Source: Thauera propionica (GTDB lineage: Bacteria; Pseudomonadota; Gammaproteobacteria; Burkholderiales; Rhodocyclaceae). From it: a stretch of 64,000 nt of DNA. The translations under genes and the position numbers were made by a program. Under the pieces are notes generated by a model, which worked only from the letters and a program-made list of their open reading frames with translations, had not been told where the DNA came from and did not search any database. Every line of letters begins with the position of its first letter. The first letter of the stretch is position 1. The stretch lies in the NCBI RefSeq assembly GCF_002245655.1, contig NZ_NOIH01000007.1:62001-126000 (forward strand), in the 5' to 3' direction. This document shows positions 51,788-64,000 of the stretch, in pieces.

Positions 51788-51925
51788 ATACATGTTCTTA
51801 AATGCGTGCCATTCGGCGGCAGCCTGGTGATCGGTTGCCGAAACGGATTTCAAGACTGGAACCAACCAGTCGAGGACCCGCAAGGGGTCGGCTTCAACCA
51901 TTTGATCAGTTGAGGAGAGGTGAGC

Positions 51926-53890
<1,965 letters not shown>

Positions 53891-57059: not shown

Positions 57060-57428
57060 ATGAGCAAGAAAATTCTTATAGCAGACGACGAGCAAAACAT
57101 CGTCATTTCCCTGGAATTCCTCATGAAGCGCGAGGGCTTCGACGTGCTCGTCGCGACCGACGGTGAAGAGGCCGTGGCGCGAATCCGCAAGGACTGTCCT
57201 GACCTGGTCCTGCTCGACGTCATGATGCCCAAGAAAAGCGGCTTTGAAGTCTGCCAGGAGATCAAGGCCGATCCGGCGCTGAGTGCGGTCCGCATCCTGA
57301 TGCTGACCGCGAAGGGGCGGGACACGGAGGTCGCCAAGGGGCTCGCGCTGGGCGCGGACGCCTACATGACCAAGCCCTTCTCGACCAAGGAGCTCGTCGA
57401 AAAAGTCCGCAGCCTGCTGGGAGCATGA
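57060..57428 (+). CDS. receiver-only response regulator
   Basis: 122 residues, one CheY-like receiver and no output domain. Phosphorylation pocket: Asp9 and Asp10, acceptor Asp53 in LLDVMMP, Thr83 in MLTAKG, Lys105 in YMTKPF. CbrB and CrbR, the normal partners of such kinases, carry AAA+ or LuxR-type outputs. GGAGGGAGGAG precedes ATG 57060. It is 31 bases after the kinase and its TGA overlaps the next ATG, so it should be made with the exonuclease fusion protein. Confidence 0.92.
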   Translation: MSKKILIADDEQNIVISLEFLMKREGFDVLVATDGEEAVARIRKDCPDLVLLDVMMPKKSGFEVCQEIKADPALSAVRILMLTAKGRDTEVAKGLALGADAYMTKPFSTKELVEKVRSLLGA

Positions 57429-59635
57429 TCATGTCAGCCAAGCTCAGGTTTGCGCTTGCGGTGATCGTGCTGGGCTTGCTGATGACGGGGCCGTTCATCC
57501 TTACGGCGCTGATCGTCTGGTTCGAGACGCAGGGAGAGAACCGTCAGCAGCTTGTGGATGTCCTCACTCCGCATCTGGGCGTGGGCACGATGTTGACCGT
57601 ACTGGGCTTTGCCGCCGGTGTGGGCGTGCTGCGGACCCTGTTCCGGCAGTACGTGCAGGGCCTGTTGCGCATGGCGGAGAACCTGCGCCTGATGCTCGGC
57701 GCGAACCGCGGCTTCCGTGTCCAGCCGGACGGCCCGCCCGAGGTGCAGATGCTCGCCGTCGCCGCCAACGAACTCGCGAGCCAGCGCGACGAGATCTTCG
57801 GCGACGTAGAGGCCCAGATCGCCCGGGCCAAGGATTCGGTCGAGCAGGAAAAGAACCGCCTGGCGGCCCTGATGTCCGAGCTGACCCAGAGCGTCGTGGT
57901 CTGCAACCTCGACGGCCGCATCCTGCTCTACAACAACCGTGCGCGGATGCAGTTTCGCGCGCTGTCCGATGCGCCGGGCGTGGCGGGTGGCGGCGAGCTG
58001 ATCGGCCTCGGGCGCTCGATCTATGCCGTGTTCGAGCGCAACCTCATTGCACACGCACTGGAAACCATCCAGCAGCGCCTCAAGCGTGGCGTAGCCCAGC
58101 CACAGGCCAATTTCGTGACGACCACGCGCGCCGGCCAGCTGCTGCGCGTACAGATGGCGCCGGTGCTGTCGGTCGCCCGCAGCGACGCCAAGGCCGAGGC
58201 CGAGCCCGAGGGCGGGGAGGGCGCGCCGGAGCGGACGCAGACGGGCTTCATCCTGATGCTCGACAACATCACCCGCAACTTCGAGACCGAGTCGCGCCGC
58301 GACCAGATGCTGCACAACCTCACGGAAGGCAATCGCGCCTCGCTGGCAAACGTGCGGGCGGCGGCGGAGATGCTCGAATACGGCGACTTGCCCGACGAGA
58401 TGCGTGACCGCTTCCGCAGCGTCATCCGCGACGAGGTTCAGGCGATGAGCCAGCGCCTGAACGACACCGCCAACGAGTTCGCCGATTCGCTGAAGGTGCG
58501 CTGGCCGCTCGAGGAGATGCTGGGTGCCGACCTCATCGCTGCTGTGCAGCGTCGCATCGAGGAACGCATTGGCTTGCCGAGCAAGCTCGAGGAGGTGGAT
58601 GAGCGTCTGTGGGTGAAGGTCGACAGCTTCTCGCTGATGCAGGCCCTGACCTACCTGGCCAACCGCCTGTCCGACGAGTTCGAAGTGCGCGAGGTGCGTT
58701 TCCGCCTGAGCGCGGCGGGACGACTGGTCCACCTCGATCTTATCTGGTCCGGTCAGGCAATGAGCACCGAGACGGTCATGAGCTGGGAACTCGAGCCGAT
58801 GAAGATCGATGACGAGAGCAGCCCGCTGACGGTGCGCGACGTGATCGACCGCCATGACGGCGAGATGTGGCTGGAGCGCGAGAAGGTGCGCCATCGCGCC
58901 TTCTTCCGCATACTGCTGCCGGCGGCCGTGCCGCAGGAACAGTCGGAGGCCGAACTCTTCCTGCGTGGCGAGAGCCGGCCGGAGTACTACGACTTCGACC
59001 TGTTCGCGTGGTCGGAAAAGTCGCATGGCATCGAGGACCGCCCGCTCACGGAACTGGCGTTCACCGTGTTCGACACCGAAACGACGGGCCTCAACCCGTC
59101 GCAGGGCGATGAAATCATCCAGATCGGCGCAACGCGGGTGCTCAACGGCAAGCTCTTGCGCAACGAGTCCTTCGAGCAGCTGATCGACCCATGCCGCCCG
59201 CTCGCCGCCGAGTCGGCGAAGATCCACGGCATCACGGCCGAGATGTTGCGCGGACAGCCCACCATCGAGTCGGTTCTGCCGGCTTTCCACGCGTTTGCCG
59301 CAGATACCGTGCTGATCGCGCACAACGCCGCGTTCGACATGCGATTCCTGCAGTTGAAGGAGGAGCAGACCGGGCTGCGCTTCGACCAACCGGTCATCGA
59401 CACCTTGCTGCTGTCGGCTGTGGTGCATCCGAACCAGGAGTCGCATCGCCTCGAGGCCATTGCCGAGCGGCTCGGCCTGACCATCGTCGGCCGCCACACG
59501 GCGCTGGGCGACGCGATCGTCACCGCGGAGGTTTTCCTCAAGCTCTTGCCGCTGCTGGCCGAGAAGGGCATTCGCACCCTGCGTGAGGCGCGCGAGGCGG
59601 CGGAGAAGACCTACTACGCCCGGATCAAGTATTGA
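57425..59635 (+). CDS. membrane pseudokinase fused to DEDDh 3'-5' exonuclease
   Basis: 736 residues. Order: two transmembrane helices (about 8-30, 48-66), a HAMP-like linker and coiled coil, a PAS-like domain (about 145-280; VVVCNLDGRILLYNNRAR), then a histidine-kinase-like region. In it the H-box position is Glu301 (EGNRASLANVRAAAEML) and the N- and G-boxes are absent, so it should not phosphorylate. Residues 540-736 are an intact DnaQ-type exonuclease: FDTETTG (Asp550, Glu552), AHNAAFDMRFL (His633, Asp638), RHTALGD (His691, Asp696). ATGA overlap with the receiver. Single-stranded nucleic acid hydrolysis is likely, regulated from the membrane by inference. Confidence 0.88.
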   Translation: MIMSAKLRFALAVIVLGLLMTGPFILTALIVWFETQGENRQQLVDVLTPHLGVGTMLTVLGFAAGVGVLRTLFRQYVQGLLRMAENLRLMLGANRGFRVQPDGPPEVQMLAVAANELASQRDEIFGDVEAQIARAKDSVEQEKNRLAALMSELTQSVVVCNLDGRILLYNNRARMQFRALSDAPGVAGGGELIGLGRSIYAVFERNLIAHALETIQQRLKRGVAQPQANFVTTTRAGQLLRVQMAPVLSVARSDAKAEAEPEGGEGAPERTQTGFILMLDNITRNFETESRRDQMLHNLTEGNRASLANVRAAAEMLEYGDLPDEMRDRFRSVIRDEVQAMSQRLNDTANEFADSLKVRWPLEEMLGADLIAAVQRRIEERIGLPSKLEEVDERLWVKVDSFSLMQALTYLANRLSDEFEVREVRFRLSAAGRLVHLDLIWSGQAMSTETVMSWELEPMKIDDESSPLTVRDVIDRHDGEMWLEREKVRHRAFFRILLPAAVPQEQSEAELFLRGESRPEYYDFDLFAWSEKSHGIEDRPLTELAFTVFDTETTGLNPSQGDEIIQIGATRVLNGKLLRNESFEQLIDPCRPLAAESAKIHGITAEMLRGQPTIESVLPAFHAFAADTVLIAHNAAFDMRFLQLKEEQTGLRFDQPVIDTLLLSAVVHPNQESHRLEAIAERLGLTIVGRHTALGDAIVTAEVFLKLLPLLAEKGIRTLREAREAAEKTYYARIKY

Positions 59636-59678: not shown

Positions 59679-61730
59679 ATGAGCGGTCCGTCCTCCTTCG
59701 CGCGCCGCCTGCGGCGCTACTACGTCTGGTACACCGGCACCTTCCTGCTGTTCGTGGTTGGCCTGGCGATCGGCGAGTACCTTGGCCTGTCGCCGCACCT
59801 GATCGGCCACGTATTTCTGTTCGTCACCATCGCCATCTACGCCGGTATCGGGGTGATGAGCCGCACCTCGGACGTGTCCGAGTACTACGTCGCGGGGCGT
59901 CGTGTGCCGGCCATGTTCAACGGCATGGCGACCGCGGCGGACTGGATGAGCGCGGCCTCGTTCATCGGCCTGGCGGGTACGCTGTATTTCTCGGGCTTCG
60001 AAGGGCTGGCCTTCGTTACTGGCTGGACCGGCGGCTTCGTGCTGGTGGCCTTGCTGCTTGCGCCTTACCTGCGCAAGTTCGGGCAATACACGATTCCGGA
60101 TTTCCTGGGTGCGCGCTACGAGGGCAATGTGGCTCGCCTGGTCGGACTGGGGGCGACGATCCTCGCGAGCTTCGTCTATCTCGTCGCGCAGATCTACGGC
60201 GTGGGTCTCGTGACCAGCCGTTTCGTCAGCGTCGAGTTCGAGATCGGCCTGTTCGTCGGGCTAGCGGGCATCCTGGTGTGCTCCTTCCTCGGCGGCATGC
60301 GCGCCGTGACCTGGACCCAGGTGGCGCAGTACGTGATCCTGATCATCGCCTACCTGGTGCCGGTGGTGATCCTGTCCTACAAGCTCACTGGCATCCCGAT
60401 TCCGCAGGCAGTCTATGGCACCGTGCTCCAGCAGATCACCGAGCGGGAGCAGCACCTGTTCGAGGCGCCTGACGAGATCGAAGTTCGCTCCTTGTACCGT
60501 CTTCGCGCCGACGGCTACGCCGCCAAGATTGACGCGCTGCCCGACTCGCTCGAGGTCGAGCGACGTGCCTTGATCGATCGCCTCAATGCGCTGAGGCTCG
60601 GAAACGCGTCCGCGCGCGACATCGCCCTCACCGAACGCACGCTGCGCGACCTGCCGCGCACGGCTGACGAGGCACGTGTGCAGTGGGAGAAGGCGCGGAT
60701 CGATGCTCTCGAGCGCGCACGACCACCGCCGCGCCACGCGCAGGCGCATCCGGGCGCCACGCCTGCCGAATCGACGGTGGCGCGCAACAACTTCCTGGCG
60801 CTGATGTTCGTGCTGATGGTCGGCACGGCCGCGCTGCCGCACATCCTGATGCGCTACTACACCACGCCCGGCGTCACCGACGCGCGCAAGTCGGTGCTGT
60901 GGTCGCTGTTCTTCATCTTCCTGCTCTACGTCACGGCGCCGGCCTATGCGGTGTTTGCCAAGTGGGAGGTGTATCACAACGTCGTCGGATCGAGCCTCAG
61001 CATCCTGCCCGACTGGGTGGCGTCATGGGGCAAGGTGGGGCTGGTGCGCATCGAGGACCTTAACGCCGACGGCATCCTGCAGTTGGCCGAACTGCGCCTG
61101 AATACCGACGTGATCGTGCTGGCCACGCCCGAGATCGCCGGCTTGCCCTATGTGGTGTCCGGGCTGGTGGCGGCCGGCGGCCTCGCCGCAGCGCTGTCCA
61201 CGGCCGACGGCCTGCTGTTGACGATCTCGAACGCGCTGTCACACGACCTGTACTACAAGGTGATCAACCCAGCGGCGACGACGCACCGCCGGCTCGTGAT
61301 CTCGAAATCGCAGTTGCTGGTCGTGGCCATGGTGGCGGCGTGGGTGGCCTCGCTGCGCCCGGACAACATCCTGTTCATGGTGGGGCTGGCGTTCTCGATC
61401 GGGGCGTCGGCCTTCTTCCCTGCGCTCGTGCTCGGCATCTTCTGGAAACGCGCGAACCGTCCGGGTGCGGTGGCCGGCATGGTGGTGGGGCTGGCCGTCA
61501 CCCTGTACTACGTCGTTCGCACGCACAGCTTCTTCGGCGGTTCGATGAGTCACGCCTGGTTCGACATCAACCCGATCTCCGCGGGGGTGTTCGGCGTGCC
61601 GCTCGGTTTCGTGACGATTGTCCTGGTCAGCCTGGTGACGCGGCCACCCCCGCAGGAAATCCAGGACCTGGTCGATTACGTGCGCTATCCGCAACTGCCC
61701 CCGGATCACGGCCGCTCGCCCGGCAGCTGA
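59679..61730 (+). CDS. sodium:solute symporter, VC_2705-like
   Basis: 683 residues, an SSS-family transporter with about 13 helices. Start: an amphipathic arginine-rich segment (MSGPSSFARRLRRYYVWYTGTFLLFVVGLAIGEYLG) that looks like a fused small DUF4212-type helix pair. The core SSS signature is seen in AADWMSAASFIGLAGTLYFSGFEGLAFVTGWTGG and GGLAAALSTADGLLLTISNALSHDLYYK. A hydrophilic insert of about 120 residues (250-369) interrupts the membrane domain. Relatives carry acetate or other short acids with sodium. It starts 44 bases after the exonuclease fusion; convergent with the next gene. ATG 59679 chosen. Confidence 0.9.
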   Translation: MSGPSSFARRLRRYYVWYTGTFLLFVVGLAIGEYLGLSPHLIGHVFLFVTIAIYAGIGVMSRTSDVSEYYVAGRRVPAMFNGMATAADWMSAASFIGLAGTLYFSGFEGLAFVTGWTGGFVLVALLLAPYLRKFGQYTIPDFLGARYEGNVARLVGLGATILASFVYLVAQIYGVGLVTSRFVSVEFEIGLFVGLAGILVCSFLGGMRAVTWTQVAQYVILIIAYLVPVVILSYKLTGIPIPQAVYGTVLQQITEREQHLFEAPDEIEVRSLYRLRADGYAAKIDALPDSLEVERRALIDRLNALRLGNASARDIALTERTLRDLPRTADEARVQWEKARIDALERARPPPRHAQAHPGATPAESTVARNNFLALMFVLMVGTAALPHILMRYYTTPGVTDARKSVLWSLFFIFLLYVTAPAYAVFAKWEVYHNVVGSSLSILPDWVASWGKVGLVRIEDLNADGILQLAELRLNTDVIVLATPEIAGLPYVVSGLVAAGGLAAALSTADGLLLTISNALSHDLYYKVINPAATTHRRLVISKSQLLVVAMVAAWVASLRPDNILFMVGLAFSIGASAFFPALVLGIFWKRANRPGAVAGMVVGLAVTLYYVVRTHSFFGGSMSHAWFDINPISAGVFGVPLGFVTIVLVSLVTRPPPQEIQDLVDYVRYPQLPPDHGRSPGS

Positions 61731-61789: not shown

Positions 61790-64000
61790 TCAGGCTTGAG
61801 CGGCGGCAAGCCAGTCGAGCAAGGCCGCCTCTTCGAGTGCCTTCGCGTACAGCCAGCCCTGTCCTTCGTCGCAGCCCAGGGCCAGCAGGGCATCGCGCTG
61901 GGCCTCGGTCTCGATGCCTTCGGCCGTGACCTGCATGCGCTGGGTATGACCAAGACTGATCACCATCCGCGCGATGCTGTCGTCCTGAAGCATTTCGTTG
62001 ACGAAACTGCGGTCGATCTTGAGCCGTTGCGCGTCGAGGTGGCGCAGCACGCTGAGCGACGAGAAGCCGGTGCCGAAGTCGTCGATCGCCACGCGAACGC
62101 CCAGCGTCTGCAGCTCAGCGAGCAGTCGGCGGACCAGGTCGAGATCGTCGGCGGCCATGGATTCGGTGATCTCCAACTCCACCTGCGACCCCGGTATGCC
62201 TGCATCGTCCAGGCTGGTCTTGAGTATCGTCATGAAATCCGGGTCGCGCAGTTGGGCGTGCGACACGTTGATCGCCATGCCGAGCGTGTCGTGACCGGCA
62301 TCCCGGAGCCGGCGTAGCTGCTGGCAGGCGCTGCGCATCACGAAGGCGCCCAGCGCGGTCATCAGCCCCGACTGTTCGGCGAGCGGAATGAAGCGGTCGG
62401 GCGGAATGAGCTCGCCGCTCGCGGTGCGCCAGCGCAGCAACGCCTCGACCCCGCTCGGACGTCCATCCTCCAGCCGCACCTTGGGCTGGTACACCACGAA
62501 GAAGTGATTGTGGGCGTCGAAGGCCTCGCGCAGGTCGCGCAGCAAATGCATGCGTTCGCGGGCGTCCTGCCCGAGCGCTGCGGAGAAATAGACTGCCGTG
62601 CCGCGGTGATGCAGCTTGGCCTGCTTGAGTGCGACATGGGCATCCTTCAGCAACTCGGGACCGTAGCAATCACGCGTACCCAACTGCACCAGCCCGATCG
62701 TCGCCGATAGTCGCACGCGCTGTCCCGCGACCTCGAATGCCTCGCCGAAAAGGTGCTGCAGCGTGTCGGGCTTGACCGTGCCGGAATGGCCGAGCACGGC
62801 GAAAAGGTCGCTGCCGAGCCGCGCCAGATGGCATTCGGGCAGGGCAGCGTGCGCACGGGCGACGATGGCCTTGAGCGCTGCGTCGCCGAACTCATGCCCG
62901 AGCGCGTCGTTGATCGCCGAGAAGTCGTCGATGTCGAGCAGGGCGAGCGTCGAGTTGGCGGGCTCGAGTTCGGGGGCGGCAAGGAGCTCGAGCAGGCGGT
63001 TGAGGTTGGGGATGCGAAGCAAGGGATCGAGATAGGCCTGGTCGATGAGACGGTCGTAAAGCAGCACGTTCTCGAAACCGACCGCCATGCTCGAGCAGAA
63101 CACCTCGAGCAGGTGGCGGTCGCCTTCCCGCAGGGGATGGGACAGCTCGACATATGCGGCGAGGCCGCGTCCCGCCGAGGTGGGAAAGTAGATCGCCAGC
63201 GCGGGCGCGAACAGGCTGCACTGCTCGTTCAGGCAACGCATGAGGGTGTCGCGGATCGTCTCTGTGTCGAGCGCGGCCAGCGGCTGCAGCACGTACTGGC
63301 TGAAACGCCCGGCGGCAGCAATGACGCGCGCGGGTTCGCCGACGCTCGCCAGGCCGCCCTGGGCGCAGACAAGCCCTTCGGTCCGCACGCCCAGCAGCGC
63401 GCACAACTGATTCACGACGCCTTCGGCAAAGCGCTGCATGCCGTGCAGCTTGGTCAGTTCGGTGCTGGCACGGACGATGCCTTCGAGGCCCTGACGCATG
63501 CGCTCGTGGGTCCGCATCTGGCGATACACGCGAATCGACGCGGTGAGGCTGGTGAATAGCCGCACACGGGTCAGCTCGGACTTGGTCTTGTAGTCGTTGA
63601 TGTCGTAGTTGCGAACGGTCTCGAGTTCGGGTGCATAGCCCGGCTGGCCGGTGCGCAGGATGACGCGCAGCGCGCTGCGCTTGAGCGCTTCGCGCACTTC
63701 GCGCACGACCTTCAGGCCGGCGTTGTCGGACTCCATCACCACGTCGAGCAGCATCACGGCCAGATCCTCGTGCTGGGCAACCTGCTGCAAGGCCGCCTCG
63801 CCGGAGTGCGCGTGCAGTAACTGCACGGGGCGGTCCTCGACGAGCATCCCGCGCAATGCGAGCTCGGTGGCGCGATGGACGTCCTCGTCGTCGTCGACGA
63901 TCAGCACTTTCCAAGGGTCTGGAGCTTCGGTCCCGGTTGGCGACGGGGCGATGTCCTCGTCGATCGCGATCAGCTCGTCGTCGGCACTGAAGGTCGGTTC
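61790..64000 (-). CDS. response regulator with DUF3369, degenerate GGDEF and EAL domain (partial)
   Basis: At least 736 residues are visible; the frame stays open to the window edge, so the N-terminus lies beyond base 64000. Order: short acidic leader, receiver (VLIVDDDEDVHRATELAL, LLDVVMES), DUF3369 (HGMQRFAEGVVNQLCALLG), GGDEF, EAL. The GGDEF active site reads LGSDLF, so cyclase activity is unlikely. The EAL site is complete: EALLRW, INVSHAQL, ELEITES, AIDDFGTGFSSL, LKIDRSF, TAEGIET, and the final Gln in DEGQGWLYAKA. It should break down c-di-GMP when its receiver is phosphorylated, with the GGDEF perhaps binding GTP. Confidence 0.92.
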   Translation of the reverse strand, partial: EPTFSADDELIAIDEDIAPSPTGTEAPDPWKVLIVDDDEDVHRATELALRGMLVEDRPVQLLHAHSGEAALQQVAQHEDLAVMLLDVVMESDNAGLKVVREVREALKRSALRVILRTGQPGYAPELETVRNYDINDYKTKSELTRVRLFTSLTASIRVYRQMRTHERMRQGLEGIVRASTELTKLHGMQRFAEGVVNQLCALLGVRTEGLVCAQGGLASVGEPARVIAAAGRFSQYVLQPLAALDTETIRDTLMRCLNEQCSLFAPALAIYFPTSAGRGLAAYVELSHPLREGDRHLLEVFCSSMAVGFENVLLYDRLIDQAYLDPLLRIPNLNRLLELLAAPELEPANSTLALLDIDDFSAINDALGHEFGDAALKAIVARAHAALPECHLARLGSDLFAVLGHSGTVKPDTLQHLFGEAFEVAGQRVRLSATIGLVQLGTRDCYGPELLKDAHVALKQAKLHHRGTAVYFSAALGQDARERMHLLRDLREAFDAHNHFFVVYQPKVRLEDGRPSGVEALLRWRTASGELIPPDRFIPLAEQSGLMTALGAFVMRSACQQLRRLRDAGHDTLGMAINVSHAQLRDPDFMTILKTSLDDAGIPGSQVELEITESMAADDLDLVRRLLAELQTLGVRVAIDDFGTGFSSLSVLRHLDAQRLKIDRSFVNEMLQDDSIARMVISLGHTQRMQVTAEGIETEAQRDALLALGCDEGQGWLYAKALEEAALLDWLAAAQA

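Follow-up and report, generated by a model that had tools for sequence, protein, structure and literature searches.

Sensor kinases of the SLC5 (Na+/solute symporter) type are known to sense acetate in systems whose final component is a LuxR-type activator. In CrbS/CrbR, termed MxtR/ErdR in Pseudomonas putida, CrbS is described as a hybrid kinase and CrbR as the activator (PMC9100948, PMC5715377), and the targets published for P. putida include an operon of pp_0353, encoding an RNase_T exonuclease, and pp_0354, encoding a CBS-nucleotidyltransferase (PMC9927547). Here, we analyze a 64,000-nucleotide stretch of the Thauera propionica genome (contig NZ_NOIH01000007.1, positions 62,001 to 126,000; hereafter the window), in which an SLC5-type kinase gene likewise lies by acs-like and symporter genes and is accompanied by a gene for a protein that fuses a membrane-bound, kinase-like region to a DEDDh exonuclease. 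We read this fusion as a membrane-anchored, receiver-gated exonuclease that probably opposes a nucleotidyltransferase, and give this reading a probability of about 0.5.

Unlike CrbS, the Thauera kinase lacks a receiver domain. The receiver encoded beside it is without an output domain, and the gene that follows encodes the pseudokinase–exonuclease. This adjacent receiver is not LuxR-type; elsewhere in the genome CrbR was not searched for. NifL, a kinase-like protein used in protein–protein control, resembles the fusion as a degenerate PAS-DHp-CA protein (Foldseek match 9qq6), but it has a transcription factor as its target and lacks a nuclease. The DEDDh exonucleases of the PolC/DnaQ type share the fold and the residues of the fusion's exonuclease; they, however, proofread for DNA polymerases or are fused to helicases, whereas the fusion is membrane-bound and joined to a pseudokinase. 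DivL of Caulobacter is a PAS-bearing pseudo-histidine kinase without kinase and phosphatase activity that yet binds DivK~P, a single-domain receiver, as its input (PMC4211667). It differs in having Tyr where the fusion family has Glu, Asp, Gln and others, and in regulating a kinase instead of carrying a C-terminal enzyme. The P. putida protein pp_0353 is a DnaQ-like exonuclease in an operon with a CBS-nucleotidyltransferase under an acetate regulator, but it stands alone and is soluble by annotation, and sections 7 and 8 of the paper mention neither a PAS domain nor a membrane or kinase-like part (PMC9927547). The fusion itself is described in no title or abstract found by a literature search of open-licence PMC text, and its plasmid copies are publicly annotated as 'exonuclease domain-containing protein'.

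The kinase-like and exonuclease parts of the fusion

The original prediction of a membrane PAS-pseudokinase fused to a DEDDh exonuclease was confirmed in its coordinates, frame and residues, with one open frame encoding a single protein of 736 residues. Pfam identifies the exonuclease as RNase_T (PF00929; E=4.3e-36 at residues 548–704, 125.4 bits against a cut-off of 24), and gives sub-threshold matches to HisKA (E=0.025 at 292–347) and PAS_4 (E=0.0036) and no match to HATPase up to E=1. An AlphaFold2 model built from 80 alignment rows (mean predicted local distance difference test score 77.3, predicted template modeling score 0.40) contains membrane helices together with a long coiled coil, as well as a PAS domain, a pair of DHp helices, a CA-like domain of the alpha/beta type, and the exonuclease. 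Searched with Foldseek, the model best matches the PAS-DHp-CA kinases WalK and VicK and PolC-type exonucleases, with the degenerate NifL ranking lower. The most conserved stretch ahead of the exonuclease is a linker with the consensus RPExYDFDL.

The fusion is matched in all 25 genomes of the genus, with a single full-length match in 18 and, in seven, a match that is split in two or truncated by a contig end. These matches are free of internal stops, although in the draft genome G010 the gene is spread over two frames. A sequencing or assembly join of two genes, which the original prediction had named as a possible artifact, was rejected on this basis. Beyond the genus, one of 16 further genomes of the order has a full match (G034, 56%). 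A profile of the kinase-like part matches 18 of 369 genomes of the class at E<=1e-40, counted from the matches listed, and a profile of the wider family is positive in 51 of 398 genomes of the phylum, comprising 46 long and five short forms as read from coverage.

The kinase-like part retains a DHp-CA fold. When its profile (17 rows) was aligned by hhalign with that of the neighboring SLC5-type kinase (16 rows), the match extended over 208 columns (probability 99.2, E=5.6e-20), in agreement with the Foldseek matches. Glu301 aligns with the invariant phospho-histidine of the kinase, as had been predicted; the two N-box asparagines are replaced by Y410 and R414 and the G1-box aspartate by W441, and the G2 box has no counterpart. 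Thus, the N and G boxes, previously called missing, have indeed lost their N and G1 residues and all of G2, but "missing" here means degenerate inside a retained fold. An intact kinase in another frame was also rejected, as residues 284–503 align in frame to the kinase with the boxes gone, which likewise upholds the view that no normal kinase is encoded in frame. Position 301 is Glu in 67, Asp in eight, and Gln in six of 81 Rhodocyclales rows, and in the distant set 22 of the 37 rows have Glu; His occurs in none of either. Glu is therefore not strictly conserved, whereas the loss of His is. From these lost residues, the pseudokinase is predicted to have neither kinase nor phosphatase activity.

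Across 11 same-genus comparisons, the mean ratio of nonsynonymous to synonymous polymorphism (pN/pS) is 0.118 for the exonuclease, 0.114 for PAS, 0.157 for the CA-like domain, and 0.218 for the DHp, and reaches 0.870 in a variable loop (residues 251–270). By this measure, the pseudo-CA and DHp are under purifying selection and, judged by sequence, the kinase-like part is dead but folded and maintained.

The exonuclease, on the other hand, looks alive. All five predicted metal-binding and catalytic residues (D550, E552, D638, H691, and D696) are present, as originally noted, and are invariant across all 37 aligned rows, the window included; of 81 Rhodocyclales rows, all those not cut by contig ends keep them as well. 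This 37-row alignment of distant members left out L101, L102, and L114, which gave no exonuclease match, and L132, an unrelated EAL protein, was dropped before counting. Among solved structures, the closest in sequence is that of the PolC exonuclease 2p1j (E=9.3e-37), and the nearest solved sequences are of the PolC, epsilon, DinG, ExoX, and Cas2-DEDDh types, so that nothing points to an oligoribonuclease or pGpG enzyme such as Orn. Family and residues together predict a metal-dependent 3'-5' nuclease activity, for which RNA, DNA, or dinucleotides such as pGpG would be conceivable substrates. The exonuclease fold could instead be a binding platform with dispensable catalysis, as would fit L101, L102, and L114, all of one genus, which keep the pseudokinase and have lost the catalytic motifs, and also the degenerate DnaQ copies that accompany DUF294 genes in Dechloromonas-type operons. 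Given the identity of the five residues in the distant and the uncut Rhodocyclales rows, we consider a purely structural role very unlikely. With those three relatives counted, 37 of the 40 rows that were aligned or inspected, among them the window, retain the residues.

The adjacent receiver and the pseudo-DHp

The fusion belongs to a conserved module, recognized in this analysis, of an SLC5-type kinase, a single-domain receiver without output domain, and the fusion. Among 80 Rhodocyclales loci, the receiver is found in 75, the SLC5-kinase in 71, the symporter in 67, and acsA in 56; the corresponding figures for 52 distant loci are 37, 30, 27, and 19, many of the loci stopping at contig ends. 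In the window, the receiver matches Response_reg only. D53 and K105 are present in 131 of 131 receiver rows, as is Thr or Ser at position 83. The kinase has a HATPase_c domain at residues 797–907 of 913, without a C-terminal Response_reg domain in Pfam. Its SLC5 part gives no match to Pfam SSF at E<=1 and is 45–69% identical to whole SLC5-kinases of distant loci. No other SLC5-kinase was found in the Thauera genome, where the remaining matches extend only over the kinase part or over a short portion of SLC5; the signal of the kinase in the window therefore probably passes to the adjacent receiver.

A connection between receiver and pseudokinase is suggested by the alphaproteobacterial family coded f235, probably the Rhodobacteraceae. 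Members with an adjacent receiver have a DHp of 66–73 residues in 23 of 24 rows, the 24th (L252) having 52, whereas it measures 25–50 residues in all eight long forms that lack an adjacent receiver. Short forms of about 470 residues have neither DHp nor CA, and an adjacent receiver in none of 39 cases. Over 124 rows, receiver and DHp are both present in 67 and both absent in 47, while one row has the receiver only (L252) and nine have the DHp only; the genomes of six of these nine encode a 63–78% identical receiver elsewhere. Excluded from the f235 counts and the 124-row tree were repeat fetches of the same genes (L244, L267, L286–L291, L293–L295), a contig-end fragment (L292), and several other contig-end rows, and the tree took in only 14 of the 80 Rhodocyclales loci. 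In three Accumulibacter loci (L194, L202, L209) the fusion lies outside the operon, with a close receiver (75–78% identity) elsewhere in the genome. A DHp that is full-length beside a receiver and eroded or deleted without one suggests a receiver whose output passes through the pseudokinase; the reading of DivK~P by DivL is a precedent for such an arrangement.

Several observations weigh against a receiver that gates the exonuclease through the pseudokinase. L103 and L117 keep the DHp, although a search of their genomes gave no close receiver at E<=1e-22; L212, also DHp-only, is cut at a contig end, its genome lying outside the receiver search. Conversely, L252 has a receiver and yet a shortened DHp. 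In L101, L102, and L114, moreover, the exonuclease residues themselves are gone. The best receivers of 16 receiver-less f235 genomes are at most 46% identical, against 48–55% for five adjacent ones, a thin margin. Parsimony on the 124-row tree gives 12 receiver and seven DHp changes, of which only three DHp changes on well-supported branches are independently paired (on average 2.6 as expected, none opposite), and significance is therefore out of reach. Covariation was higher for the control pairing of receiver and exonuclease (7.9) than for receiver and DHp (5.8; 131 pairs, effective 63.9), with receiver–CA and receiver–PAS scores similar to or above the latter; nor were the expected interface positions singled out in a positive control that paired the receiver with the kinase DHp (100 pairs, effective 27). 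Owing to the failed covariation control and the few independent changes, we grade the action of the receiver on the pseudokinase as likely only.

The 39 short forms count on the same side, because they keep membrane helices, PAS, linker, and exonuclease in the absence of DHp and CA, and so indicate that PAS and exonuclease can work without the pseudokinase. This, along with a PAS domain as conserved within the genus as the exonuclease, would suit an exonuclease gated by PAS and membrane helices alone through a ligand or redox cofactor, the pseudokinase being a passive spacer and the receiver serving something else. A spacer does not explain, however, why DHp and CA are under purifying selection and erode where the adjacent receiver is missing, and we regard gating by PAS alone as unlikely. 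Another option, modeled on DivL, is a pseudokinase that modulates the SLC5-kinase or acts as a buffer for the receiver, with the exonuclease as a second, separately acting domain. Apart from the DivL precedent itself (PMC4211667), DivL (4q20, E=0.0035) is among the weak PDB sequence matches of the pseudokinase profile. Yet at least 11 receiver-adjacent f235 loci with enough flanking sequence (e.g., L253, L254, L334, and L335) have no SLC5-kinase beside them, and the exonuclease residues persist as described above; such control of the kinase or receiver seems very unlikely. For the receiver-gated exonuclease, the idea that a sensor part gates the nuclease in connection with carbon sensing is retained from the original prediction, given the dead kinase, the nuclease that looks alive, and the acsA, SLC5-kinase, and symporter context, with the input redirected to the adjacent receiver and not only to a PAS ligand.

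DUF294 nucleotidyltransferases as recurrent neighbors

A DUF294 nucleotidyltransferase is a recurrent neighbor of the fusion and is naturally fused to a related exonuclease, an association that emerged from this analysis. The gene is present in all 52 f235 loci with at least 2.5 kb of upstream sequence, in 41 of 52 distant loci, and in 36 of 80 Rhodocyclales loci. Four loci (L257, L258, L259, and L260) encode RNase_T, two CBS domains, DUF294, and DUF294_C in a single chain according to Pfam, and an open reading frame of L367 corresponds to an exonuclease-CBS-DUF294-DUF294_C fusion by BLAST. In addition, the nine best-scoring non-family exonucleases of the wider-family search all lie beside or inside a DUF294 gene. 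In a further tree, these DUF294-linked exonucleases group with the fusion family, on long branches (Shimodaira–Hasegawa-like approximate likelihood ratio test 91). Two DUF294-adjacent exonucleases, L106 (at 1033) and L006/L352, fall outside this clade, which makes the link recurrent and not one clean clade. In Paracoccus denitrificans PD1222, five genes overlap end to end, encoding a nucleotidyltransferase-type protein (PDEN_RS25395), a small protein, the kinase, the receiver (PDEN_RS25410), and the fusion (PDEN_RS25415). The small gene (PDEN_RS25400, NC_008688.1 626365–626610) between the nucleotidyltransferase and kinase genes is annotated as hypothetical. DUF294_C has been placed among the GlnD/GlnE-type domains of the HEPN superfamily (PMC3710099).

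These comparative data point to the DUF294 nucleotidyltransferase as a functional partner of the exonuclease. Two facts count against that part of our reading. Thauera loci have no DUF294 gene at the operon; the Thauera genome carries three copies elsewhere, two of them beside a DnaQ-like gene. Moreover, the P. putida study reports that deletion of pp_0353 slows growth on pyruvate, that deletion of pp_0354 does not, and that neither affects growth on acetate (PMC9927547), a difference between the mutants that argues against a simple obligate exonuclease–nucleotidyltransferase pair. The authors speculate on mRNA decay for pp_0353 and leave its function unexplained, in line with the original prediction, which placed DnaQ-like exonucleases of unexplained role near acetate symporter genes of other proteobacteria (PMC9927547). 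An exonuclease whose targets are mRNAs or small RNAs of carbon metabolism, without a link to DUF294, would account for the pyruvate phenotype of one operon partner and not the other. It would not account for the recurrent adjacency and the natural fusions, and the closest relatives of known structure are the proofreading exonucleases of DNA polymerases and that of DinG rather than oligoribonuclease; we hold an RNA target of this kind to be possible but somewhat unlikely.

Two further arrangements of these genes were noted. In Dechloromonas/Azonexus-type operons, the fusion is followed by two DUF294 genes with a degenerate DnaQ and then by the symporter (e.g., L186:8932–12734; similarly L189–L192, L196, L198, L199, L201, L204, and L210). 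At L354:6538–9188, in the genome that contains the window, the neighbor of a DUF294 gene encodes a DnaQ-like protein in which the first catalytic Asp is replaced by Asn.

Organization of the locus and proposed mechanism

The genes of the window follow the order acsA-like, SLC5-type kinase, receiver, fusion, VC_2705-family symporter (Table 1). The product of the first gene is presumably an acsA-like acetyl-CoA synthetase, as named by comparing its sequence with features of the family. The first ATG of the fusion overlaps the stop codon of the receiver gene, and many homologues start at the position of Met3 (57431). Convergent with the symporter gene, the minus strand encodes a response-regulator-type protein with DUF3369, GGDEF, and EAL domains (61790–63907).

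Table 1. Features of the locus, in window positions unless another locus is named
Feature	Position	Strand	Evidence or remark
acsA-like acetyl-CoA synthetase (presumed)	51920..53890	+	Query for neighbor searches
SLC5-type histidine kinase, 913 residues	54287..57028	+	HisKA and HATPase intact
Single-domain receiver, 122 residues	57060..57428	+	D53, T83, and K105 all present
Pseudokinase–exonuclease fusion, 736 residues	57425..59635	+	Membrane helices, PAS, pseudo-DHp, pseudo-CA, linker, DEDDh exonuclease
Two membrane helices (predicted helices 5–34, 38–92)	57437..57700	+	Hydropathy maxima within residues 1–34 and 51–73
PAS domain, residues about 151–281	57875..58267	+	Weak PAS_4 match; modeled strands and helices; pN/pS 0.114
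Pseudo-DHp, residues 282–352	58268..58480	+	HisKA match, alignments, model; E301 (58325–58327) at phospho-His position
Pseudo-CA (HATPase-like, degenerate boxes), residues 362–503	58508..58933	+	Model, Foldseek, hhalign
Linker motif RPEYYDFDLF, residues 518–527	58976..59005	+	D523 in 37 of 37 aligned rows
DEDDh exonuclease domain, residues 546–712	59060..59560	+	RNase_T E=4.3e-36; 2p1j nearest
VC_2705-family sodium/solute symporter	59679..61730	+	TIGR03648, 781 bits (cut-off 320.75)
Doubly degenerate relatives	L101:509-2734; L102:9067-11190; L114:9075-11243		Pseudokinase present, exonuclease motifs lost

Based on the families involved, the SLC5-type kinase would sense carbon status and phosphorylate Asp53 of the receiver, which, as the comparative data favor, could then dock on the four-helix pseudo-DHp of the fusion. 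As the pseudo-DHp would neither take nor give phosphate, it would serve as the reader of the receiver. By way of the pseudo-CA and the conserved RPExYDFDL linker, the resulting change may reach the DEDDh exonuclease and switch it on or off. In what is the weakest step, the exonuclease would remove 3'-terminal nucleotides from a substrate extended or modified by the DUF294 nucleotidyltransferase, candidates being RNA 3' ends or a nucleotidylated protein. The net effect might be a fast, non-transcriptional control of acetate or pyruvate use. Taken further, kinase, receiver, pseudokinase reader, and exonuclease could work in series at the membrane with the DUF294 protein as the opposing writer, so that 3'-nucleotidylation becomes a reversible switch for carbon uptake or for the synthesis of acetyl-CoA; the two-component output would then be a nucleic-acid or nucleotidyl 3'-eraser and not transcription. 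This extension is tentative, and we think it doubtful in its complete form.

The only adjacent candidate reader of the output-less receiver is a dead kinase that carries an exonuclease. Natural variants, including members with or without the receiver, with a dead nuclease, or fused to the nucleotidyltransferase, make the mechanism testable, for example in Paracoccus denitrificans PD1222 and Pseudomonas putida KT2440. If the proposal is true, it would reveal a way for a receiver to control a nuclease, which is an unusual end point of two-component signaling in bacteria, and would give functional access to two kinds of acetate-operon genes that are so far unexplained, those for the exonuclease and for DUF294.

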